From positions 1 to 45,745 of IMG/VR virus record IMGVR_UViG_3300017917_001970: a stretch of 45,745 nt of DNA, one strand, 5' to 3'. Positions 33,813 through 44,488 of the stretch are shown in pieces (within the stretch, counting starts at the first letter, position 1; the number at the start of each line of letters is the position of its first letter). The notes below the pieces were generated by a model. That model made no database searches. It saw nothing but the letters and a program-made list of their open reading frames with translations, and was not told the DNA's origin. The position numbers and the translations under genes were made by a program. The stretch comes from a virus.

Positions 33813-34373
33813 TTGACAAAAAATAAAATGCTTGTGGGGTTAATTAGTAGTACTGTAGCTTTAGTCCATATTTTAGGGGCTATACCTTCATATGCTACTG
33901 ATAATAGTTTATCTAAACAGGAAGTCCTAGATACCGCCACCCCAGAGGTGGCTTTTCTGCTTTCTGAAGATAAAAATAAGAAAATACTGAGCAAGTATGA
34001 AAATGCGACAAGTTTAACTGACAGCCAGTTGGTTGAATTACTTAAGGCAGTAGGGTTCAAAGGAAAAGCTTTAAAAACCGCTTGGGCGGTAGCTAAGGCT
34101 GAATCCAATGGTCGTCCATTTGCTTTTAATGGAAACACCAAAACTGGAGACTCCTCATATGGAATCTTTCAGATTAATATGCTTGGCGTATTAGGTCCAG
34201 ACAGACGAGATAAGTTTGAACTTGATCTTAATGCTGAGCTATTTAGCCCTGTCAGGAATGCTGAGATTGTGTATCACATGACTCAAGGCGGTACTGACTG
34301 GAGTTCATGGTCATCCTATAATAAGGGTGCTCATTACAAATGGTTAAATAAGTTTGATGATTTAAATCATTGA
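33813..34373 (+). CDS. Secreted lytic transglycosylase / lysozyme-like lysin
   Basis: The only plus-strand gene in the window. Translation starts at a TTG, placed by AGGAGG five bases upstream; the next ATG is 15 bases further. Residues 1-28 are a Sec signal peptide: basic start, hydrophobic LVGLISSTVALVHILGAIP, and an SYA cleavage site before TDN. Residues about 85-186 form a lysozyme-like lytic transglycosylase domain, with the probable catalytic Glu97 (AWAVAKAESNGRPFAFN), TGDSSYGIFQIN, and a tail with GTDWSSWSSYNKG. It should cleave wall glycan outside the membrane, either for lysis or for export without a holin. Its last codons overlap the stop of the converging dehydrogenase gene by 7 bases, so no terminator fits between them. 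Confidence 0.85.
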   Translation: MTKNKMLVGLISSTVALVHILGAIPSYATDNSLSKQEVLDTATPEVAFLLSEDKNKKILSKYENATSLTDSQLVELLKAVGFKGKALKTAWAVAKAESNGRPFAFNGNTKTGDSSYGIFQINMLGVLGPDRRDKFELDLNAELFSPVRNAEIVYHMTQGGTDWSSWSSYNKGAHYKWLNKFDDLNH

Positions 34374-35035
34374 AACTTGCAATTGTTGATATGGCTGATT
34401 TCTAATTCGTTAATATTAACATGAGGTGGCAAAGAAGCTACCCAACGAATAGATTCGGCCATATCTTCTGCTGTTAATGCATTATCTTTTTTTTCTATTT
34501 GAGTATCTATTGTTCCTGGACATATTTCTGTAACTTTTATATTATATTGGGGAAATTCCATTCTCATAGTATCTATTAACCCTCTTTGCCCTCTTTTAGC
34601 ATTGGTATAATTACCACCACCACGGAAAGGGACTTTGCCAGAAAGTGAATTTATAAAAATTATTGTTGGAGAGCCTGACTTTTTCAAACATGGGACAAAA
34701 AGCTTAGATAAATACATTGGGCCAGAAACATTTATATCATAAGCTGTTCTAAAATTTTCTGGATCCTCATCTATAATATGTCTTGGCGATGCCCCACCAC
34801 CAGCATTATTTACTAAAAGGTCAAGAGCTATATCTTTATAGTATTCATAAAATTTTTTAATACCAGCAAAGTCTGTGATATCTAAATAGTATGACTCTAG
34901 GTTAGGATTATTAATCTCTTTAATATTTGTAAGATTTCTTGAAACTGCTATTACTTTATATCCATCATTTAATAACAATTTTACAGTAGCTAATCCAACA
35001 CCCTTGCTAGCTCCTGTAACTATTGCAGTTTTCAC
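34367..35035 (-). CDS. Short-chain dehydrogenase/reductase
   Basis: This 222-residue enzyme has the complete classical signature: TGASKGVG at 7-14 (NAD(P) binding), NNAG at 76-79, Ser130/Ser132 in INSLSG, catalytic Tyr143 and Lys147 (YTNAK), and ICPGTIDT at 171-178. It should oxidise or reduce a hydroxyl/carbonyl group with NAD(P). The start is a GTG that overlaps the upstream oxygenase's stop as TAGTG, so it is the last gene of the oxygenase operon. A dehydrogenase acting on a hydroxylated product of the oxygenases would be logical but is not shown. The substrate cannot be read from the sequence. Confidence 0.9.
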   Translation of the reverse strand: MKTAIVTGASKGVGLATVKLLLNDGYKVIAVSRNLTNIKEINNPNLESYYLDITDFAGIKKFYEYYKDIALDLLVNNAGGGASPRHIIDEDPENFRTAYDINVSGPMYLSKLFVPCLKKSGSPTIIFINSLSGKVPFRGGGNYTNAKRGQRGLIDTMRMEFPQYNIKVTEICPGTIDTQIEKKDNALTAEDMAESIRWVASLPPHVNINELEISHINNCKFQ

Positions 35036-35766
35036 TACATGCTCTCATTACGATTCATATTCATATTATTATGAATCCAATGTCCTGGAACCATATACTT
35101 TATCCCTGACTTCACTGTATGTGCAGTATGAAAATATGGAGCAGAAGCTGGGAAAATAATAACACTGTTTGCCTTTGGCTTTACACCAAAATCTATTGCT
35201 TTATTTTTAACAGCCTCATCATAATCTAAGTTAACTGGTGGAGCCCCATGGGTCCAACCATCTTTACTATTCCATCCACCATCATACTCTTTTAACTGAA
35301 ATGATATTTCTCCACCTTCGCAGTCATCATTTAAATACATAACCAAGGAATATCTTAGGGTTTGATCTCCATCTAACTGATCAAAATGTGCACCCATGGC
35401 CATCCCAGTATAATATTTCTTAATATTAAATGTTGGGAAAAGTCTTGGTTCGTCAAAATCGCCTAGCGAGGTAGCATAGTCCTTACAGACATTATAAAAT
35501 GTAGTCATTATGGCATTATATATATATTTACTTTTTTCGCCTATCTCATTGTTCAGCTTTTCTATTGCATTAATATCAAAGGTTTTTGTTTCTCCATAAA
35601 TAAAGTTTTTGTCGTTAGAGGATGTCCATTTATTCCAAACGTTTATATCTGATCCATCTACCCCTCCAAGATCATCCAGTTCTTTCATTGTTTGCTGAAA
35701 GATATCAAAATTATCAATTGCATCAGTATAGTAGTAAACTTTTGGATCTAGTATTTCTTTATTCAT
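35035..35766 (-). CDS. 2OG-Fe(II) oxygenase 1 (prolyl hydroxylase-like)
   Basis: A 243-residue enzyme of the prolyl 4-hydroxylase-like 2OG-Fe(II) class. Iron ligands are His127 and Asp129 (GAHFDQ) and His213 (FHTAHTV); Lys223 (SGIKY) would hold 2-oxoglutarate. The window's common YLNDDCEGGE motif follows the first ligands. It has an insert between motif and distal His (about 160-195, Trp/Gly-rich) not present in the others. The start is the ATG at 35766 with CGGAG upstream; a longer frame beginning 23 codons earlier has no ribosome site and overlaps the neighbour. It would hydroxylate a protein, amino acid or other small molecule; the substrate is unknown. Confidence 0.87.
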   Translation of the reverse strand: MNKEILDPKVYYYTDAIDNFDIFQQTMKELDDLGGVDGSDINVWNKWTSSNDKNFIYGETKTFDINAIEKLNNEIGEKSKYIYNAIMTTFYNVCKDYATSLGDFDEPRLFPTFNIKKYYTGMAMGAHFDQLDGDQTLRYSLVMYLNDDCEGGEISFQLKEYDGGWNSKDGWTHGAPPVNLDYDEAVKNKAIDFGVKPKANSVIIFPASAPYFHTAHTVKSGIKYMVPGHWIHNNMNMNRNESM

Positions 35767-35779
35767 GACATACTCCGTA

Positions 35780-36439
35780 TCAGTATTTGTTATCCTTATA
35801 AAAGTCAGGAACTTTAATAAAACCAACAAGAACATATCTTATTGGTCCATCACCAACATGTTTAACTCCGTGCTCATATTCTTTTGTTCCTGGAAAAATC
35901 AATAAAGACCCTGGTTTTGGTTTTAATTGTATATCCTTATTAGGGAAAAACAACTCTCCAGCAACATAGTCTTCATTAAGATATAAAATTGTAGCATATC
36001 TAATTGATGGATCTGTGTCTTGGTCTGTATGAGATTTTAATTCTACGCCATTTTGCATTCTTTGAATTGTTGCAAAGCCACTTAGTACAAGACCTGGATT
36101 AGATTGTATGATTATGTTATTTAATCTACTGTATATTTTTTCTTGTATTGGATAAGACTTTATATTAAAGTTTTTATCTTCCCAGTTTTGTGTTATTTCA
36201 AACTTACCCTCAGCTACAAGATTTTCAACATCGTCTCTACCAAATTTTTCCATACAAAATGTTTTTAAATTAGAGATATACTCAATCTTCCAATCATCCT
36301 CATTTATTGAGTTAATTATATCTTTTATAGATTGAATCTCTTCTTCTGATAGATAGTTTTCAACCAATAAAATATCTTGATATATTTCTTTTACACTAAA
36401 GCCATTATTAATTAGCTCATCATGTAAAAAAGCTGACAT
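35780..36439 (-). CDS. 2OG-Fe(II) oxygenase 2
   Basis: A 219-residue enzyme: His137 and Asp139 (KSHTDQD), His190 (YEHGVKHV) and Arg201 (PIRY) as the 2-oxoglutarate anchor, with YLNEDYVAGELFFPN between them. The N-terminal half is helical with SEEEIQSIKDIIN. The ATG at 36439 follows a GGAG; a TTG nine bases upstream lies too close to it and is rejected. It uses Arg as anchor, as in DNA- and protein-modifying relatives. The start lies one base after the previous gene's stop. Confidence 0.87.
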   Translation of the reverse strand: MSAFLHDELINNGFSVKEIYQDILLVENYLSEEEIQSIKDIINSINEDDWKIEYISNLKTFCMEKFGRDDVENLVAEGKFEITQNWEDKNFNIKSYPIQEKIYSRLNNIIIQSNPGLVLSGFATIQRMQNGVELKSHTDQDTDPSIRYATILYLNEDYVAGELFFPNKDIQLKPKPGSLLIFPGTKEYEHGVKHVGDGPIRYVLVGFIKVPDFYKDNKY

Positions 36440-36440
36440 T

Positions 36441-37190
36441 TTATCCAAGCTCCTCTATTTTATACTTATTACCATCTTTATCTATTTTATACCCTTCCTT
36501 AAGAAGCTCTTGCCACTCTGCCTTTTCTTTCTTCTGAGCCTCACGAATTTTTTCCATTTCTTCTGCCCAAGCTTTTCTAGTTTCTTCAGGATATGCGGAC
36601 TCTTCTCTATCGTCCCAAAATGAACCCAAAGTATATCTTGTTCCTTTAGTAATCATTGTAACTTCATGCATATTTTTAAATCCGCCATCAAAAGCTGCGA
36701 GCATTCCCACTTTTGGCTGTATTTCAACTTCTCTATCTGGAAACCTTAACAAACCGCCTTCAAAATCATCATTTAAATATAAAAATGCTGCATAACGACT
36801 TCTTGCAAATGGTCCAGAATTTCCATGTTCATCAGTATTATCTGAGTGTATTCTTGCATATGCCCCTGGTTCCCATTTTTGAGTATGATATCCAATCTGA
36901 ACCACTGTTTCTGGGTCAATATCATGAACAGATGCTACTGCATTGATAAAACCTTTTCTTATATCAGAAAATGCTGTTGATGGCAATCCAACTTCTTCTA
37001 TCTCTGGATCTCCATCTTGGGGCAATACAGAAGAATAGGACTCATAAAAAGATATAGGAGTCCATTCAAGCTTAGCAGATCCTGCCTGCTTTTCTATTGC
37101 TTCTATAACTTTTTGTGACTCTTCTGGTGTTAAAAAATTTTCATATACAACTAGGTCTTCATTTATTCTTTTTTTATTAGAAAGATTCAT
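36441..37190 (-). CDS. 2OG-Fe(II) oxygenase 3 with charged C-terminal helix
   Basis: A 249-residue enzyme: His115 and Asp117 (ARIHSDNTD), LYLNDDFEGGLLRFPD, His175 (NMHEVTM) and Arg185 (GTRY). After the catalytic domain comes a ~50-residue Glu/Lys-rich helical extension (about 200-249, EEMEKIREAQKKEKAEW) found in no other copy except, in weaker form, oxygenase 4; it may hold a partner. The start overlaps the upstream stop as ATGA. Confidence 0.87.
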   Translation of the reverse strand: MNLSNKKRINEDLVVYENFLTPEESQKVIEAIEKQAGSAKLEWTPISFYESYSSVLPQDGDPEIEEVGLPSTAFSDIRKGFINAVASVHDIDPETVVQIGYHTQKWEPGAYARIHSDNTDEHGNSGPFARSRYAAFLYLNDDFEGGLLRFPDREVEIQPKVGMLAAFDGGFKNMHEVTMITKGTRYTLGSFWDDREESAYPEETRKAWAEEMEKIREAQKKEKAEWQELLKEGYKIDKDGNKYKIEELG

Positions 37191-38056
37191 TGTATTCTTA
37201 TTCCCCCTTCTATCTCTGTTCTTTGTGGATGCTCCATTCTAAACTTTTCTTCTAGCTCTGGTTGCATTGCAGCCCACATCTCTTTACCATACTCTTTTTC
37301 TTTTGCATACCACTCATCTGTGCCCTTTTGATATTTTTGCCAATACATTCTTGATAAATATTTATTCTTATTATATGATGGCATAACTCCATGAAGATAT
37401 GGCATTCCATCTTCTGTAAGATAGTCTGGATGACCTGATGGGAAAACAAGAAGATCTCCTGCCTCTGGCTTATATTTTACAAGCTTATCCCCCATTGCAA
37501 AATCAATTTCGCCACCTTCGTAGTCATCATTAAAATATATTGTGCAAGTTATAATAAACTTATATCCTGGACGAGATGCCTGCTCTCTCATATAGTCTGA
37601 ATGATATCTCATTCCAACTTTTTGATCTTCATTGCTTACGTGGTATTTTCCTATTGTTCCACCAGTCCAACGCCAAAGAGGAACTTCGTTCCCATCATCA
37701 TCTGTAATTTTTGCATCTAAGTCTACATCAATATTATGTTTTTTTATGTAGTCAGCTGTTACTAAATGAAAATTTTTCATCATCTCTATAGCAAAATCTT
37801 TTTGATCTTGCTGAACTTGTGTTTTTGCTTCTACATTTTCTATATTTCCATATTTATCTGCCATTGAAAATCCAGGAATAATTGGATTTAGATATTCTCC
37901 AAAAATACTCCATTGTGTCCAAGGACTAAATAGCCTATCCTCTGTTTCTACCAAAGAGTCTGTTAAAATTTTATAAGATTTTGCAATATCTTTAAAAATA
38001 TTTTTATATACAACAATATTAGGATATATCTCTATTGATTCAAAGCTGTCTGTCAT
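37187..38056 (-). CDS. 2OG-Fe(II) oxygenase 4 (longest)
   Basis: A 289-residue enzyme: His152 and Asp154 (MRYHSDYM), IYFNDDYEGGEIDF, His222 (LHGVMPS), and Lys232 or Arg236 as possible 2-oxoglutarate anchor (the G before it is replaced by N). The distal His segment carries an insert (FPSGHPDYLTEDGMPYLHG). The C-terminal ~55 residues are charged and helical. It overlaps both neighbours by 4 bases (ATGA). The unusual anchor makes the activity slightly less certain. Confidence 0.82.
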   Translation of the reverse strand: MTDSFESIEIYPNIVVYKNIFKDIAKSYKILTDSLVETEDRLFSPWTQWSIFGEYLNPIIPGFSMADKYGNIENVEAKTQVQQDQKDFAIEMMKNFHLVTADYIKKHNIDVDLDAKITDDDGNEVPLWRWTGGTIGKYHVSNEDQKVGMRYHSDYMREQASRPGYKFIITCTIYFNDDYEGGEIDFAMGDKLVKYKPEAGDLLVFPSGHPDYLTEDGMPYLHGVMPSYNKNKYLSRMYWQKYQKGTDEWYAKEKEYGKEMWAAMQPELEEKFRMEHPQRTEIEGGIRIQ

Positions 38057-38730
38057 GGTTGTTTTTCTCCAGTATGTTCTTTAATTGTCCAGAAAAATGG
38101 GCATGTATATCTTATGCCATTTTTTATTTCACTAACACCATGAATAAAGTTTTTATCTCCTGGGAAAAAATATGCAGCTCCACGTTTAGGTTTAAATTGA
38201 ACTCCTTGATTTGGAAAATATAGTTCTCCACCCTCATAGTCATCATTTAAATAAAATAAACTTGCAAGATCATACCATGGAAAGTCGTTTGGTTTTCCAG
38301 CATCTGGGCCATCGTGTAGTTCTTTGTCTGCATGAGGTCGCTGAAGCTGACCTGGCAACCAACGAACAATGGTTTGACCTGTTGGCTCAGCTTTAACATT
38401 ATAGAATGTTTCTATGATTGGCTTTAATCTTTCAACAAGATTAACAATTATTGGAACAATTTTTGGATCATTCTTATCAAGTGATGGTGCGCTGGCAACT
38501 CTATCTTTCCAGTAACTAGAATCATAAATCACTGTTCCATTTTCATTAACATGGTCTTCTGTGACATCCCATATAGTAATATTTCTTGCTGCATTGTCTA
38601 AAAAATCAATCTCTTCTTCTGTCATAAAGTTTTCTAATTCAATAATCATATCTTTGCTATCCCCAAAAAATCCAGAAGGAGTTATAGATTTTGGGGCATA
38701 TAAGTGAATATCTTTATTAGTTATGTCCAT
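38053..38730 (-). CDS. 2OG-Fe(II) oxygenase 5, leaderless start
   Basis: A 225-residue enzyme: His133 and Asp135 (QRPHADKELHD), FYLNDDYEGGELYFPN, His197 (FIHGVSEI) and Arg207 (GIRY). TIVRWLPGQ precedes the first ligands, as in cyanophage-type relatives. Its ATG is exactly 6 bases from a TGGTATAAT element and has no Shine-Dalgarno, so a second promoter inside the operon may give leaderless mRNA for oxygenases 5 to 1 and the dehydrogenase. Confidence 0.87.
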   Translation of the reverse strand: MDITNKDIHLYAPKSITPSGFFGDSKDMIIELENFMTEEEIDFLDNAARNITIWDVTEDHVNENGTVIYDSSYWKDRVASAPSLDKNDPKIVPIIVNLVERLKPIIETFYNVKAEPTGQTIVRWLPGQLQRPHADKELHDGPDAGKPNDFPWYDLASLFYLNDDYEGGELYFPNQGVQFKPKRGAAYFFPGDKNFIHGVSEIKNGIRYTCPFFWTIKEHTGEKQP

Positions 38731-38736
38731 AATATG

Positions 38737-38745
38737 ATTATACCA
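38737..38745 (-). promoter_or_regulatory. Extended -10 promoter (TGGTATAAT), leaderless, inside the oxygenase operon
   Basis: TGGTATAAT followed by exactly six bases and the ATG at 38730. It overlaps the last codons of the upstream gene (stop at 38738). Confidence 0.6.
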
Positions 38746-39466
38746 TCCCGTTTCCTTGATATTTTCTATTATCTTTAACAGAAAGTCTTAATACTTTTGT
38801 TTCATGCTGTCCTATAGACTCACCTTTTTCATTTACAGCATCCCTATACCAGTCAGTCCATTTACCGCTTTTATTAACTTCTTGAGCTGCCTCACCGTAA
38901 GACTGATGAGCCTTTTGTCTTAGACTGCCTGGATCAGCATAGTCATATACCTCAATAGAGGTATTATCTAACATTGTTAATGATACAGGAATTATTGTTG
39001 CTACTGGAGTTCCAGCTTTAATTGTTATTTCTTTATTTGGCACTCTTGCCTTTATTGCTAGAGGATAGTCATTATCGTAAAAAGATGTACTTATTAAAGA
39101 AGACATAGTTTCAAAATCTTCATTAAAATAATTTACAGGATTAATAGTTAACATACTAATATTTTGCTCTGTTCTAAATACTAAGCCAGTCATAAAACTT
39201 ATTGTTGACTGACCTCTTCCAGTATAGACAAAGTTTTGACCACTAAGTATTTTAACATTTTCTCCAGAAGTATCGTTGATACCATTCCAAATAAAAGTAA
39301 TATCTTCTTCGCAGAATAGATTCCACCCAACCATATTTGCCTGAGTTACTGGAAAACATCTATAGGCATGTTTTTCTGGAGTTACATCCATCCAATCTCT
39401 TTTTATTGACATTGGAGCAATGTTAACTTTACAATTTGGAATTCTTTCAACTGATATATTTAACAT
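38738..39466 (-). CDS. Companion-family protein A (unknown function)
   Basis: A 242-residue protein, not recognised with certainty. It may belong to a Pfam domain of unknown function such as DUF6065 (not checked). It has RDWMDVTPEKHAYRCFP (about 24-40), VGWNLF, a DITFIWNG strand, GRGQSTISF and ITIKAGTPVATIIPVS (about 148-164). The same order of motifs occurs in the 248-residue protein at 41662 and, more diverged, in the 256-residue protein at 40133, so the three are paralogues. The fold looks like a beta sandwich. All three stand next to oxygenase genes. It overlaps the upstream oxygenase stop as TAATG. Confidence 0.6.
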   Translation of the reverse strand: MLNISVERIPNCKVNIAPMSIKRDWMDVTPEKHAYRCFPVTQANMVGWNLFCEEDITFIWNGINDTSGENVKILSGQNFVYTGRGQSTISFMTGLVFRTEQNISMLTINPVNYFNEDFETMSSLISTSFYDNDYPLAIKARVPNKEITIKAGTPVATIIPVSLTMLDNTSIEVYDYADPGSLRQKAHQSYGEAAQEVNKSGKWTDWYRDAVNEKGESIGQHETKVLRLSVKDNRKYQGNGMV

Positions 39467-40122
39467 TAGTCTTCGTCTGGCCTATACATTTCTGGAGTAT
39501 GAAACTTTTTATTGTAGTCTAACATTGTCACAATAGAATATTTTGTTCCAGAGTGCACTGGCATTGCACGATGAGGATACATATAGTTTGATGGAAATAT
39601 GTACAAATCTCCTGCCTTTGGCTTTATGTTCATATCTTGTAGTCTAAAGTATAGCTCGCCACCTTCATAATCATCATTTGGATATGCTACCAAAGACACT
39701 GTACAGTTATAAGAAAATCCATGATCATGGTGCTCTTGAAAGTGTTGTCCTGGACCATACTTAATAAAATTAAATGCTTCCCAGTATTTTAAGTCCATGA
39801 TATTAAAATCTTTTCTATAGTCCTCAACTGCTGGAAACTGGGCATCGTATACATCTTGCCATAGTTCTTGCAAAGCAATTCCATCTGGACTTTTATCATT
39901 AATAATATTTTCTTTTTTATATTTAAAGTCAACACAGTCTCTATAGTCTGGCATTAATTCTTGATATCCTACATAGGCTGGCTGCCATGAATACCTATTT
40001 CCAGAATTGACTGGTGAAAGAGTTTTCTCTAGTCTTTCAATAACGTTAAGCTCTTTTTTAATAACATTTCTATAGACAACAATTCCCTGTCCAAGATTTT
40101 CTTTTTCTGTCCAAGTTTTCAT
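39466..40122 (-). CDS. 2OG-Fe(II) oxygenase 6
   Basis: A 218-residue enzyme: His131 and Asp133 (QEHHDHGFSYNC), AYPNDDYEGGELYF, His184 (YPHRAMP) and Lys194 (GTKY). It is a close paralogue of oxygenase 7; both contain RDCVDFKYK, EAFNF-x-KYG, YNCTVS, and KxGDxxxFPSNYxYxH, so they come from a recent duplication. The start is the ATG at 40122 with AAGGGGAT six bases upstream; a longer frame to 40179 would overlap the neighbour. Confidence 0.88.
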   Translation of the reverse strand: MKTWTEKENLGQGIVVYRNVIKKELNVIERLEKTLSPVNSGNRYSWQPAYVGYQELMPDYRDCVDFKYKKENIINDKSPDGIALQELWQDVYDAQFPAVEDYRKDFNIMDLKYWEAFNFIKYGPGQHFQEHHDHGFSYNCTVSLVAYPNDDYEGGELYFRLQDMNIKPKAGDLYIFPSNYMYPHRAMPVHSGTKYSIVTMLDYNKKFHTPEMYRPDED

Positions 40123-40132
40123 TTTTATCCCC

Positions 40133-40903
40133 TTACTTGTATTCTCTTCTAGTCCAAACATTTTTAATATATACCCCACCGTCTGGGACTCTATATTTTT
40201 TCATATTTTCCATCATTTTATCATAAATTTGGTTTTGATTAAGAAACTCAATTTCACTTTCCCAGTTTTCCCTTTGAAATGGAAGAAGTTGCATATATGG
40301 TGTTCCAGCTGGAATAGTTCCCTCATATCCGTCAACTATAAAAAATGGAAAGGTTCCAGATAAATAAACTTTATCATTGTCTACTATTCCTGTTGTATTT
40401 AAAAATGGTAAATCAAATCTATTCATTGGTGTCATATAAATAACACTATAGCCATCTGGAACTTCAATACCCCAGTCTGGTTGCCAAGCAAAGTGATCTT
40501 TATAGTATCCTATAGGATGTTGAAACTGTGGCATAGGTGGTCTTTTAGATACAAAATCTTTATACTTTATATCAACTATCTCAACATCTATTTTTCCATT
40601 TTTATCTTTAAAAAATTTTATATCACATGGAGTTTTAAGAACATAGCCAGTTGAAAATGAATCCATAATTGCTGGACATGCTTTCCATGTTGGAATTTTT
40701 CCGAAATCATCTACTGTGCCTTCTTTTGGAAAAGGACAAATAGCTTTTGGTGCCTTATAATATTCTCCACTGGGCATTTTTGCAAATCTGTCTGCTTCTT
40801 TATACCACTTAGGCATAACTGAATGTGTGCTAGTTGGTACCGAAGTACTATCCTTATTTAACCAAGGTCTAGATGACCTAAATATTATTTTACTTAGCTT
40901 CAT
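40133..40903 (-). CDS. Companion-family protein C (unknown function)
   Basis: A 256-residue protein, the most diverged of the three companions. It starts MKLSKIIFRSSRPWLNKD and has SVMPKWYKEADRFA (about 28-42), CPAIMDSFSTGYVLK, VIYMTPMNRFDLPFLNTTG, and TIPAGTPYMQLLPFQREN (about 210-226), which matches the IKAGTPVATIIP and FPKGMPIAFFTI segments of A and B. Several His/Trp residues lie in FQHPIGYYKDHFAWQPDWG. A role as partner or substrate-handling protein for the flanking oxygenases is an inference. It overlaps oxygenase 7 by 4 bases. Confidence 0.58.
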   Translation of the reverse strand: MKLSKIIFRSSRPWLNKDSTSVPTSTHSVMPKWYKEADRFAKMPSGEYYKAPKAICPFPKEGTVDDFGKIPTWKACPAIMDSFSTGYVLKTPCDIKFFKDKNGKIDVEIVDIKYKDFVSKRPPMPQFQHPIGYYKDHFAWQPDWGIEVPDGYSVIYMTPMNRFDLPFLNTTGIVDNDKVYLSGTFPFFIVDGYEGTIPAGTPYMQLLPFQRENWESEIEFLNQNQIYDKMMENMKKYRVPDGGVYIKNVWTRREYK

Positions 40904-41616
40904 CGTTTATGGCCAAGCTCATTTATATCTGTCATAATTACAACTGCATATTTTGTTCCAGACTTCATTGGCAAAGAGGCATGTTCATAAATATAGTTAG
41001 AAGGAAATACTGCAATATCTCCAACTTTTGGCTTATGAACATAGCTATTTAACCTTGGAAATTCAATTTCTCCACCCTCATAGTCATCATTAATATATAT
41101 AACAGCGGACACTGTGCAGTTATAGGCTGGACCATGATCTGCATGTACCCTAAAGTGTTTTCCTTCACCTTCATACTTTACAAAGTTAAAAGCTTCATAG
41201 TACACAACATTAATTCCCCAATATCTAGCATAATCGTCTATACAGTATTTTAATTTTTCATAAATTTCATTGTGAAGATCAATTAGTGGACCATTAATTT
41301 CATCTCTTGGTCCTAAGTTTTCTGGCTTATACTTAAAATCAACACAATCTCTAGCCTTTTTAATTGGTGTTGCAGAGTTTGTTACTTGTGCTTCTGACCA
41401 CTTATATCTTTTTGTGCCATCTAAATTAGACTCTAAAGTATTTATATACCTATTAGCATCATCTTTTGAAAAAACATTTTGGTAAATATTTAATCCTAGA
41501 CCAGGGTTTGATACAGTTATATTGTTACCAGCAGGTCTATCTGGCATACGATTAGTAACTGTTTCTGACCTATCTTTATTAAACCATGCATCTTGTGGAT
41601 CTTCATACTGACTCAT
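40900..41616 (-). CDS. 2OG-Fe(II) oxygenase 7
   Basis: A 238-residue enzyme: His158 and Asp160 (FRVHADHGPAYNC), IYINDDYEGGEIEFP, His212 (YEHASLPMKSG) and Lys222 (GTKY). Closest relative in the window is oxygenase 6, with which it shares RDCVDFKYK, the second His after the HxD motif (HADHG/HHDHG) and the FPSNY segment. It carries an extra polar N-terminus of ~35 residues. It has its own TGCTATAAT promoter and a GGGGGAG ribosome site. It uses Lys as the 2-oxoglutarate anchor, as collagen-type prolyl hydroxylases do. Confidence 0.88.
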   Translation of the reverse strand: MSQYEDPQDAWFNKDRSETVTNRMPDRPAGNNITVSNPGLGLNIYQNVFSKDDANRYINTLESNLDGTKRYKWSEAQVTNSATPIKKARDCVDFKYKPENLGPRDEINGPLIDLHNEIYEKLKYCIDDYARYWGINVVYYEAFNFVKYEGEGKHFRVHADHGPAYNCTVSAVIYINDDYEGGEIEFPRLNSYVHKPKVGDIAVFPSNYIYEHASLPMKSGTKYAVVIMTDINELGHKR

Positions 41617-41639
41617 GTTGCTCCCCCATGTTTATTTTA

Positions 41640-41648
41640 ATTATAGCA
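41640..41648 (-). promoter_or_regulatory. Extended -10 promoter (TGCTATAAT) before oxygenase 7
   Basis: TGCTATAAT in the 45-base gap after companion B. The predicted start near 41633 leaves a ~17-base leader with GGGGGAG. Confidence 0.55.
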
Positions 41649-41661
41649 TATTGTTTGGATA

Positions 41662-42408
41662 CTAGTATTTTATTTCAGGATCTTTTAAGACTATTTTCCA
41701 TGGCTTTTCTAAAAATTTTTCACCATTAGGACCAATTCCATGCTTATATAGTTGTGGAAAATTATAGGGGTCCTCTTTTAAAATTTCATATCTTTTATTG
41801 CCATAACTATCCATATCTTGTTTTATTTTATTGTTATCTTCTAAAGAATAAATTTCTATATCAGTTGATTCAAGTAAATTTTTTGGATAAATAGTAAAAA
41901 ATGCAATTGGCATTCCTTTTGGAAAAACTATTTCTTTATTTGGATTAGTTATTTTCCAGGACATTGTAAGTGCTTGATAATTATAATAGTCAGACCTCCA
42001 CACAAAACTTAGTGGATATGCATCTTCAAATATATAATTTGGAGGTCCTGAGAAAATTAAATAGTGATCTGGATCTGTTTCAGCAAATAAGTTTAAATAA
42101 AATGTAATCTGCCCTACACCAGAATCATTTATAGCAAGAACGTCTTCGTTATATCTTGACCCCTCCAATATTTCAACATGAGAGTTGTCTTCTCCATCAA
42201 TGCCTTCCCACTTACCATCCCATTTAACCTTAACATCTTGAGGCAGCCTTATTTCCCAACCATGTATTGTTGCATGAGTTAGTGGTGGACACAAATATGC
42301 AATTTTATTATAGGTTTTATCCATCCAGTCTCTTTTTAATTTTGACTGCTGTATATTAGGGTAGTCAGAATCTATATTTGTTTTCCAAAATTTTATTTTT
42401 GGTGACAA
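41662..42408 (-). CDS. Companion-family protein B (unknown function)
   Basis: A 248-residue protein, clearly paralogous to companion A: KRDWMDKTYNKIAYLCPPLT (about 25-44), HGWEIRLPQDVKVKWDG, GVGQITFYLNLF, IFSGPPNYIFEDAYPLSF and IVFPKGMPIAFFTIYPKN. The shared Cys (YRCFP/YLCPP), Trp and Gly positions suggest a common fold, probably a beta sandwich. Translation appears to start at a TTG (42408), with an AAGG further upstream than usual and the upstream gene's stop 3 bases away; the start is not certain. It follows the zinc-ribbon gene. Confidence 0.58.
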   Translation of the reverse strand: MSPKIKFWKTNIDSDYPNIQQSKLKRDWMDKTYNKIAYLCPPLTHATIHGWEIRLPQDVKVKWDGKWEGIDGEDNSHVEILEGSRYNEDVLAINDSGVGQITFYLNLFAETDPDHYLIFSGPPNYIFEDAYPLSFVWRSDYYNYQALTMSWKITNPNKEIVFPKGMPIAFFTIYPKNLLESTDIEIYSLEDNNKIKQDMDSYGNKRYEILKEDPYNFPQLYKHGIGPNGEKFLEKPWKIVLKDPEIKY

Positions 42409-42411
42409 GAT

Positions 42412-42651
42412 TTATTCTACCTTGCCCCATTTGCCCATAGGGCATTCTGCATTTGCTAATTTTGTTTTAAGATTCATAAAGCAACCACACTTAAGACACT
42501 GTTTTGTTGCTTGAAGTAGTTCTGGACAACCATTGCAAATATTCATTCTTTGATTAACGATATTTTCATCATCAACTAATCTTTCTGGATCTAAAAGATG
42601 CCATGGTCTGGAATCTCCTAAATTTTTTTTCCATTCGCTCCATTTAGACAT
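42412..42651 (-). CDS. Small zinc-ribbon protein (DUF6171-like)
   Basis: A 79-residue protein with Cys39-x2-Cys42, Cys52-x2-Cys55-x-Cys57 and Cys70 in a CNGCPEL ... CLKCGCFM ... ECPMGKW pattern, which I recognise as the small DUF6171-type family. It should bind zinc (or, less likely, an Fe-S cluster). The N-terminus (SEWKKNLGDSRPWHLLDPER) is conserved in style with phage relatives. It overlaps the upstream gene by 8 bases and has AGGAG before the ATG. Such proteins occur near 2OG oxygenases in aquatic phages as I recall; function unknown. Confidence 0.7.
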   Translation of the reverse strand: MSKWSEWKKNLGDSRPWHLLDPERLVDDENIVNQRMNICNGCPELLQATKQCLKCGCFMNLKTKLANAECPMGKWGKVE

Positions 42652-43087
42652 CTTGAATATCTCCTAGTTTAGTAAACTTGTTTCCATCCCAGATATCTCC
42701 TAAGTTTGTTCCTGGATGATCTGTTCCGTCTACAACAATTACTTTGCTTTCTATTGCGTGTTCATATCTTATTTCTTTTTCAGACCCTATATTAATAAAA
42801 ATAATTCCATAAATTTTATTATCTGATATTACACAAAAAATTCTATCAGTGAAAACTGTAGAGTGATCAAATTCTCCTTCTACTGGAATAAACTCTCCAT
42901 TAGACAATGTTGCACCGACTGTTAAATTTTTCATGCCAGTGCATTCCATGACATAGTTAGGCTGACTTGCTGCTAAAGACCATCTATTAACACCTTCTTC
43001 ATAGCTGGACTCTAGCATGACGTAATCAAAAACTTCATACTTTCCTAATCCGTCTTCTATTTCAACGGCAATTAGATATTTTTTCAT
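42644..43087 (-). CDS. Unknown protein, first gene of the oxygenase operon
   Basis: A 147-residue acidic protein, not recognised. It starts MKKYLIAVEIEDGLGKYEVF and ends TNLGDIWDGNKFTKLG. The latter resembles the short WxG-KF units that end some phage virion proteins (a small C-terminal beta motif). A central FDHSTVFTDRIFCVISDNKI stretch is beta-rich. It is the first gene after the strong promoter at 43113-43141, with a GGGG site. It may be a virion component modified or accompanied by the enzymes downstream, or an unrelated passenger. Confidence 0.5.
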   Translation of the reverse strand: MKKYLIAVEIEDGLGKYEVFDYVMLESSYEEGVNRWSLAASQPNYVMECTGMKNLTVGATLSNGEFIPVEGEFDHSTVFTDRIFCVISDNKIYGIIFINIGSEKEIRYEHAIESKVIVVDGTDHPGTNLGDIWDGNKFTKLGDIQDV

Positions 43088-43112: not shown

Positions 43113-43141
43113 ATCATATCAAAGTTTTTTATATTTGTCAA
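43113..43141 (-). promoter_or_regulatory. Near-consensus sigma-70 promoter of the oxygenase operon
   Basis: On the minus strand TTGACA (43136-43141), a 17-base spacer and TATGAT (43113-43118) preceded by TGA. It is the leftward promoter with the best -35 in the window. Transcription starts near 43106, leader ~20 bases with GGGG. The -35 partly overlaps the end of the upstream gene's surroundings. Confidence 0.75.
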
Positions 43142-43143
43142 AC

Positions 43144-43683
43144 TTAGACTGCGCCACAGAAACCACAGTTACAGCTTGGTCTTGTTGGTGGGCATGGTGG
43201 TCTACATGGTGGACAGAATGATGGTGGGAAGAACGGTGGGAAGAATGGGAAGAATGGTGGGAAGAACGGCGGGAAGAACGGGAAGAATGGGAAGAACGGT
43301 GGAAAGAATGGTCCAAACGCTGGAAAGAATGGAGGGAAAAATGGTGGTGTAACGGCATTAGATGCAGCAGATGAATCAGATGTAGCAATTACAGTTGCAC
43401 CTTCTAAGTTTCTTAAGGTTACAGAAAATGTGTATGCTGTTCCATTTGTTAATCCAGTAACAGTAATTGGAGATGATGATCCAGTTGCAGTAATTCCACC
43501 TGGAGACGATGTAACAACATATTGAGTACCAGCTGGCTTTCCAAGATATGCTGGAGCGGTAAAAGTAACGGTTACAGAACCAGTAGTTGCATTTACTACC
43601 TGATTTACTGTTGCGGTTCCAATAGTTGGGGTTCCTGGCTTGCGTCCCCCAGATGATCCGCTGGCACCTTTGATTTTTACCAT
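43144..43683 (-). CDS. FN3 protein with Phe-Pro-Pro-rich and Cys-rich C-terminus
   Basis: A 179-residue protein. Residues 16-112 are one fibronectin type III domain (strands around VNQVVNATTGSVTVTFTAP, GTQYVVTSSP, ITVTGLTNGTAYTFSVTL). Residues 113-155 consist almost only of Phe and Pro in an FFPPFFP pattern. The end has six cysteines (157, 160, 164, 171, 173, 176) in FCPPCRPPCPP and CNCGFCGAV. The frame is clearly right: FN3 and AAAGGTAGG ribosome site agree. The hydrophobic, Pro-rich part could lie on the virion surface, bundle or insert in the wall or membrane of the host; the cysteines may form disulfides or bind metal. Secretion signals are absent. Confidence 0.8.
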   Translation of the reverse strand: MVKIKGASGSSGGRKPGTPTIGTATVNQVVNATTGSVTVTFTAPAYLGKPAGTQYVVTSSPGGITATGSSSPITVTGLTNGTAYTFSVTLRNLEGATVIATSDSSAASNAVTPPFFPPFFPAFGPFFPPFFPFFPFFPPFFPPFFPFFPPFFPPSFCPPCRPPCPPTRPSCNCGFCGAV

Positions 43684-43750: not shown

Positions 43751-44488
43751 TTATGAAACACAAACAAGTATAGATTTAACAGTGATTATTGAATCATTAT
43801 CAGTCCTAATTTCGGGGTATATGCCAGAGGCTTGGGCAATATAAGAGTCAACCACAACCTTATGTTCTAAAGAAATATCATAAGAAAACTGGTATTTTAA
43901 TATACCTGCATAACTAGTTGGATAGTTATTGCTATTTTCAATATATGACCTATACCATAGTTCTGTATTATTTTGTAGGGTAGTTATTTCAATATTATAA
44001 CAAATATCAAGTATAGACCCTACTTTAATTCCTCTAAGATTTATTTTTTGTGCAGAGTCAATCCATAGCGAGGCTAAATTTTCAGTTGGTAAAAATTTTT
44101 CAATAGTGTTTTTACCTTTAGGTTGTATTTTTAATCTAACCCACCCGTCTAAGCCTCTTTGAGCACCTAAATTTATTATTTCTTTTTCATGATTGTAATA
44201 AAGTCCCCACCCAATATTTTGTCCTGATGGAGATAAGATACTAACTCCATCTTTACCGTCTTTACCATCTTTGCCATTTTTTCCAGGATCTCCCTTTAGA
44301 CCTTGTGGCCCCGCTGGTCCTGCTGGACCTGTCTCACCTTTAGGACCTTGAATACCCTGAGGTCCCTGCGGTCCTGGAACAGCAACATATGCGGTTTCTA
44401 TAGTTTGATTTACTGGTTGTTCTTCTATTGTTACTTCAGAATATTTTTTTCTTTTTGCTGCATCTGGAAAGTTCATGCTTTTAGCCAT
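43751..44488 (-). CDS. Collagen-repeat tail fibre protein
   Basis: A 245-residue protein. Residues 39-83 contain about 15 unbroken Gly-X-Y triplets (GPQ, GIQ, GPK, GET, GPA, GLK, GDP, GKN and GKD repeated), enough to form a trimeric collagen-like stalk. Before it lies a helical N-terminus rich in Lys, and after it a ~160-residue beta-rich head with NIGWGLYYNHEKE and GLDGWVRLKIQPKG. Bacterial and phage collagens of this kind serve as stalks for a host-binding head. AGGAAAG precedes the ATG at 44488. Only one triplet has Pro in the Y position, the classic place hydroxylated by prolyl 4-hydroxylases. Confidence 0.85.
   Translation of the reverse strand: MAKSMNFPDAAKRKKYSEVTIEEQPVNQTIETAYVAVPGPQGPQGIQGPKGETGPAGPAGPQGLKGDPGKNGKDGKDGKDGVSILSPSGQNIGWGLYYNHEKEIINLGAQRGLDGWVRLKIQPKGKNTIEKFLPTENLASLWIDSAQKINLRGIKVGSILDICYNIEITTLQNNTELWYRSYIENSNNYPTSYAGILKYQFSYDISLEHKVVVDSYIAQASGIYPEIRTDNDSIITVKSILVCVS

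Follow-up and report, generated by a model that had tools for sequence, protein, structure and literature searches.

Prolines arranged in repeated tracts and modified by prolyl hydroxylases are familiar from collagen and from the extensins of plants, which may serve as an analogy for the system considered here. Related in sequence and fold, and with the same kind of iron site, are the collagen prolyl 4-hydroxylase (P4H) of virus PBCV-1 (5c5t), itself virus-encoded, and the P4H enzymes of Bacillus (5hv0, 3itq). In aquatic phages, 2-oxoglutarate (2OG)-Fe(II) oxygenases are common, with cyanophage S-SCSM1 encoding 24 of them, and their functions are described as uninvestigated (PMC9602691). The stretch analyzed in the present study (the window) represents a fragment of 45,745 bases from an uncultured virus in IMG/VR (IMGVR_UViG_3300017917_001970) and bears an operon with seven oxygenases of this superfamily, headed by a gene for a fibronectin type III (Fn3) protein with a Phe/Pro-repeat tail, in the following referred to as the tract gene. 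Judging from the association of this gene with the oxygenase cassette, the operon probably represents a protein-hydroxylation module of the phage, whose targets would be the Phe/Pro-repeat tails found in fibre proteins of the virion. The features concerned are as follows, in order of transcription, with the collagen-like gene added at the end.

43144..43683, minus strand: tract gene T for the proposed substrate, with Fn3 domain (PF00041), (FFPPFFPFFP)n tract towards the C-terminus and Cys-rich tail
43113..43141, minus strand: promoter-like site TTGACA-17-TATGAT, TG before -10; 11/12 matches, consensus match only
42644..43087, minus strand: small protein, first gene past the promoter; open reading frame (ORF) with no Pfam match
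42412..42651, minus strand: small Cys-rich DUF6171 protein (PF19668)
41662..42408, minus strand: U3, DUF6065 paralog (PF19541, 3e-36), rare in relatives
40900..41616, minus strand: oxygenase G, 2OG-Fe(II), Lys type (PF13640; catalytic residues)
40133..40903, minus strand: U2, DUF6065-related, phrog_7084 (profile-profile match to U1, E 1.3e-7)
39466..40179, minus strand: oxygenase F, Lys type (PF13640; model); residue 20 (MKTW) is probably the conserved start
38738..39466, minus strand: U1, DUF6065 (PF19541, 8e-31), predicted dUTPase-like fold (model, Foldseek)
38053..38730, minus strand: oxygenase E, Arg type (PF13640; catalytic residues)
37187..38056, minus strand: oxygenase D, Lys type, optional in relatives (PF13640; catalytic residues)
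36441..37190, minus strand: oxygenase C, Arg type (PF13640; catalytic residues)
35780..36448, minus strand: oxygenase B, Arg type, motif YLNEDYVAG (PF13640; catalytic residues)
35035..35835, minus strand: oxygenase A, Lys type (PF13640; catalytic residues); translation may actually begin at a later Met (MNKEILDP)
34367..35035, minus strand: short-chain dehydrogenase/reductase (SDR), last gene of the operon (PF00106, E 6.6e-40; motifs)
43751..44488, minus strand: collagen-like fibre protein (PF01391); rival substrate, uncoupled from the cassette

Association of the cassette with a Phe/Pro-repeat gene

The first-pass annotation of this DNA, which had described the oxygenases, did not notice the three interleaved DUF6065-type genes, the DUF6171 gene and the tract gene, the latter being the first gene beyond its range. 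The Fn3 protein encoded by it ends in TPPFFPPFFPAFGPFFPPFFPFFPFFPPFFPPFFPFFPPFFPP. Among loci retrieved by oxygenase F alone and having at least 4 kb upstream (n = 32), 31 show a tract gene at a distance of at most 2.5 kb upstream, and the remaining one at 3.6 kb. Vice versa, when IMG/VR DNA was scanned for the tract only, an oxygenase was found within 3 kb downstream on the same strand in 72 of the 77 loci offering at least 3 kb of downstream sequence. Two of the five exceptions bear the cassette elsewhere on the same contig (L090, L103) and a third at a distance of 3.8 kb (L147), so that L118 and L130 remain. Whole-record searches revealed 6–13 oxygenases in 15 of the 17 tract-found contigs over 30 kb. 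In a sample of 21 records drawn by capsid relatedness only, at least five oxygenases were present in two, both with dense tracts, while 18 possess neither cassette nor tract (Fisher p about 0.014, hand-computed). The corresponding scan of cellular genomes resulted in seven matches in 11.3 million contigs, with the sole true tract gene (L210) again accompanied by this cassette; the respective contig is binned to a Chitinophagaceae metagenome-assembled genome and is probably a phage contig within that bin. No tract was found in the four reference viruses checked, three of them being cyanophages (ACG-2014f, S-SCSM1, and S-RIM4), at least two of which have several oxygenases. As the tract gene is nearly always located directly upstream of the operon, these findings suggest that the enzymes act on the repeat and make its gene product the leading substrate candidate.

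Several observations weigh against this reading. In the window, the promoter-like site stands between the tract gene and the cassette. Furthermore, L118 bears a tract gene without a cassette on its short contig. L130 has a tract as well, but its 38 kb gave no match to PF13640, and the 34 kb of G036 contain three tract sites but lack an oxygenase. In G002, on the other hand, no tract was found, though the cassette begins at the contig edge. Enzymes with the P4H fold can also have other protein targets, and the loci share phylogeny, so that the association counts are not independent.

A collagen-repeat gene is likewise located just upstream, both in the window and in 17–19 of the 32 oxygenase-found loci (17 within 2.5 kb), and the enzymes share the collagen P4H fold. 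Hence, they might be collagen-type prolyl or lysyl hydroxylases acting on the collagen-like fibre protein encoded at 43751-44488. However, this gene is absent from the near-complete, cassette-bearing records G001 (112 kb), G002 (103 kb), and G009 (90 kb), of which G001 and G009 possess cassette and tract, whereas it is present in the cassette-less relatives G044, G046, G048, and G049, the latter three also near-complete. In addition, the cassette occupies at least two genomic sites, the window site flanked by collagen-like, lysozyme-like and h335 genes and a second one between a fibre gene and that for ribonucleotide reductase (RNR). At both sites it is headed by the tract gene, whereas the collagen gene stays behind and does not adjoin the cassette at the second site. 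Due to this uncoupling in near-complete records, an obligatory partnership with the collagen-like gene can be ruled out, and the fibre protein is an unlikely substrate.

The tract proteins consist of one to three Fn3 domains, replaced once by a weak PASTA match, followed by 8 to 72 xFP units with a composition of 52% Phe, 44% Pro, and 2% Tyr. An antisense G-x-y ORF opposite the tract was dismissed as a real gene because the sense frame is continuous with that of the conserved Fn3 domains and most of its variation falls on third codon positions. The tract is followed by either a Hint/intein-like domain or a tail, the latter being Cys-rich or reading YSSERFKHSI. In several genomes, a second tract terminates a protein exceeding 1,100 residues, which contains repeats of Fn3-like domains and other domains of the surface type; such remote giant fibre-like genes with FFP tracts at or near the C-terminus were located in G004, G003, G007, and G045 (regions L296, L297, L298, and L299, respectively). 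These domain architectures suggest that the tract proteins are virion fibres. The Hint/intein-like ends (L021:3032-4384, L053:340-1656, L107:6071-7393, L147:5250-6659, and L156:3566-6481), characterized by a first Cys shortly past the tract and an HN motif at the end, were deduced from weak Pfam matches for L021 and L107 and by eye for L053, L147, and L156. They point to possible self-processing of the tail.

Such processing, together with several modifying enzymes encoded beside a gene with a short, variable and repetitive tail and a weak YhhC match of oxygenase C (20 bits at a cut-off of 150), would also fit a pathway resembling those for ribosomally synthesized and post-translationally modified peptides (RiPPs), in which cleavage of a precursor, here the tract protein, would liberate its modified tail as a small bioactive compound. 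We regard this as quite improbable, as giant fibre-like proteins also end in tracts and the Hint domain is missing from most tract proteins. Moreover, neither a leader or RiPP recognition element (RRE) nor a maturation protease or transporter was recognized by Pfam and PHROG in the window cassette, a dedicated RRE search not being included.

Oxygenases, their fold and their conservation

The seven oxygenases proposed in the first-pass annotation are all present, encoded on the minus strand by genes which overlap or abut with their operon neighbours (gaps from -56 to +45 nt), and score at 34–57 bits against PF13640, above the curated cut-off of 27. Likewise, the predicted HxD...H iron triad is complete in each of them, and a 2OG-binding Lys or Arg is present as well. 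The proposed (Y/F)xND(D/E)(Y/F/C)xxG motif, in contrast, holds for six enzymes but misses B, which reads YLNEDYVAG. Among 871 full-length homologs, the three residues of the HxD...H triad are conserved in 870, 870, and 869, respectively, and the 2OG-binding basic residue is always either Lys (494) or Arg (375). In the window, Lys occupies this position in A, D, F, and G and Arg in B, C, and E; therefore, two oxygenase subclasses occur side by side. Structure modelling, performed for F (pLDDT 89.4), places this enzyme in the double-stranded beta-helix fold of prolyl hydroxylases, with matches to PHD2, the EF-Tu P4H of P. putida, the PBCV-1 P4H and an algal P4H at E-values down to 5e-11. Profiles of F and G searched against PDB sequences retrieve Bacillus P4H, PKHD, LH3, and P3H1, and G, F, and E are predicted to be prolyl-hydroxylase-type enzymes. 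The names of the PHROG families matched by the oxygenases of the window (35035-41616), namely ferrochelatase, DNA endonuclease and endonuclease V, are likely misannotations, as is the 'ferrochelatase' label placed over 2OG domains in phage records; the families are mixed.

The gene set recurs widely. A search of IMG/VR with oxygenase F gave more than 590 relatives. Among the loci analyzed, the gene order T-G-U2-F-U1-E-(D)-C-B-A-SDR recurs. When intervening unrelated ORFs are ignored, adjacencies among these loci amount to 148 for F-U1, 141 for T-G, 137 for U1-E, 133 for U2-F, and 132 for G-U2. When 147 non-redundant oxygenases are placed in a tree, each of the copies A to G forms a clade of its own with members from many loci. 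The clades of C, F, and G are highly supported, those of A and D moderately and those of B and E weakly. Median pairwise dN/dS values per copy of 0.07–0.16, similar to those of other genes of these phages, indicate that each copy is under strong purifying selection. Most cassette-bearing contigs contain 6–13 oxygenase copies in whole-record searches, and enlarged sets of 11 and 13 copies were observed in L115 and G017, respectively. Capsid identities to the window of 39 to 93% among cassette-bearing genomes imply that the cassette is not limited to one narrow species. About 200 oxygenase matches in whole records lack any internal stop, in agreement with the notion of intact, non-decaying copies. 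Rather than random gain and breakage, variability mainly concerns D, B, A, SDR, and extra paralogs, with some copies being duplicated. Separate clades in many phages, purifying selection, conserved order and the lack of broken copies thus all support the earlier suggestion of selection for several distinct hydroxylations. As to the strong promoter invoked alongside it, a promoter-like TTGACA-17-TATGAT site is present at 43141-43113 as a consensus match only, and such sites are not in overall excess (64 found versus 56.7 ± 6.0 expected).

With an EF-Tu prolyl hydroxylase among the nearest solved folds, the oxygenases could instead target host proteins or metabolites, for example, EF-Tu, 2-oxoglutarate pools or nitrogen metabolism, and thereby reprogramme the cell, an idea cited for cyanophage 2OG oxygenases (PMC9602691). 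This is improbable, as it leaves unexplained the 6–13 conserved clades, the fixed operon beside virion genes and the association with the tract, which the three cyanophages mentioned above do not possess.

Accessory proteins and phage identity

The dehydrogenase noticed earlier at the operon end is an SDR with intact TGxxxGxG, NNAG, and YxxxK motifs. DUF6065 is, as far as we know, still a family without an assigned function. The model of U1 (pLDDT 85.8) is predicted to adopt a dUTPase-like fold (Foldseek E 5e-4, probability 1.0, TMt about 0.6), and U2 appears to be a distant relative of U1 according to their profiles. With regard to the five conserved catalytic motifs of dUTPases, reading the alignment by eye, GIVDND and AGTPxxQ-like stretches are kept in U2, not in U1, and U1 is without an obvious dUTPase motif III. 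Among the loci examined, U3 is found in the window and L065 only. Relatives of U2 adjoin RNR in the haloarchaeal tailed virus Halorubrum phage HF2 (L293) and are encoded close to it in cyanophage S-RIM4 (L294); in haloarchaeal tailed viruses, no oxygenase is annotated alongside.

These RNR neighbourhoods, the dUTPase-like model and the position of the cassette beside RNR at its second genomic site would be consistent with a nucleotide or DNA modification pathway combining the oxygenases with the DUF6065 proteins. However, the oxygenases match protein hydroxylases in both sequence and fold searches of the PDB, and U1 shows no obvious motif III as described, making this pathway very unlikely.

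Portal, maturation protease, capsid and tape-measure genes identify the window as originating from a tailed phage. Its capsid protein is 43–44% identical to those of Streptomyces phages such as BillNye and LukeCage, which makes an actinobacterial host plausible; a search among cultured phages gave no close relatives at the DNA level. In many relatives (for example, L224, L230, and L236), a second capsid-like stretch (31–43% identical) directly follows the capsid gene and possibly reflects a tandem major/minor capsid pair. An intron as cause of the apparent insertion in relatives' capsid genes can be ruled out, as the insertion is this second capsid-like coding stretch. In two related contigs (G003:C1:92354-93472 and G008:C1:15526-16644), two TAA stops break the capsid gene match, which may reflect an intron, an insertion or an assembly error.

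Proposed mechanism and comparison with known systems

In the protein-hydroxylation module favoured here, oxygenases G, F, and E together with U2 and U1 would constitute the core, extended by C, B, A, D, and the SDR. Co- or post-translationally, the oxygenases would act on the (F/Y)F-P(P) repeats in different registers, hydroxylating prolines and perhaps also aromatic residues. Their targets would be the C-terminal tail of the upstream-encoded Fn3 protein and, in several genomes, that of the giant multi-domain protein, whose gene lies at a distance of tens of kilobases. Each enzyme might prefer its own context within FFP, FPP or YFP units, and such a division of labour fits the observation that tract length correlates weakly with the number of oxygenases (rho 0.42, p 0.002, 50 loci, uncorrected for kinship). 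By this modification, a very hydrophobic tract could become a virion appendage that is soluble, stiff or adhesive. Some of the new hydroxyls may be oxidized or reduced by the SDR, while the DUF6065 proteins may, as a guess, serve as scaffolds or substrate adaptors. Taken further, a densely hydroxylated FFP tract resulting from 6–13 register-specific oxygenases, two DUF6065 accessory proteins and an SDR is conceivable as a phage counterpart of collagen and extensin with its own chemistry, a proposal that we consider possible, albeit still rather speculative.

The pairing provides a concrete guess at the substrate of such phage enzymes, and as the oxygenase set is combined with one sequence-simple, synthesizable repeat, the substrate question is directly testable. 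If true, this reading would reveal a phage-derived system for protein hydroxylation that employs several enzymes, along with a new material made of repetitive protein, and DUF6065 would gain a context. The open-access literature searched gave neither a relevant report on prolyl hydroxylation of virion proteins by phages nor a description of such a cassette, with several conserved enzymes and a Phe-Pro repeat partner. While the enzymes belong to a known superfamily, the cassette with its Phe-Pro repeat partner is the new element. The hydroxylases of PBCV-1 and Bacillus are single enzymes, whereas the present system comprises 6–13 divergent copies in an operon with the repeat partner. EF-Tu prolyl hydroxylase (4iw3) and PHD2, the best structural matches of F at 14–19% identity, target one or two prolines, which are part of a degron or a folded protein. 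The cyanophage 2OG-Fe(II) oxygenases are from the same superfamily and partly from the same PF13640 family, but are spread over the genome, with no FFP tract in the three cyanophages checked. Finally, compared with collagen and the extensins, the repeat itself differs, reading (F/Y)FP(P) in the system of the window.

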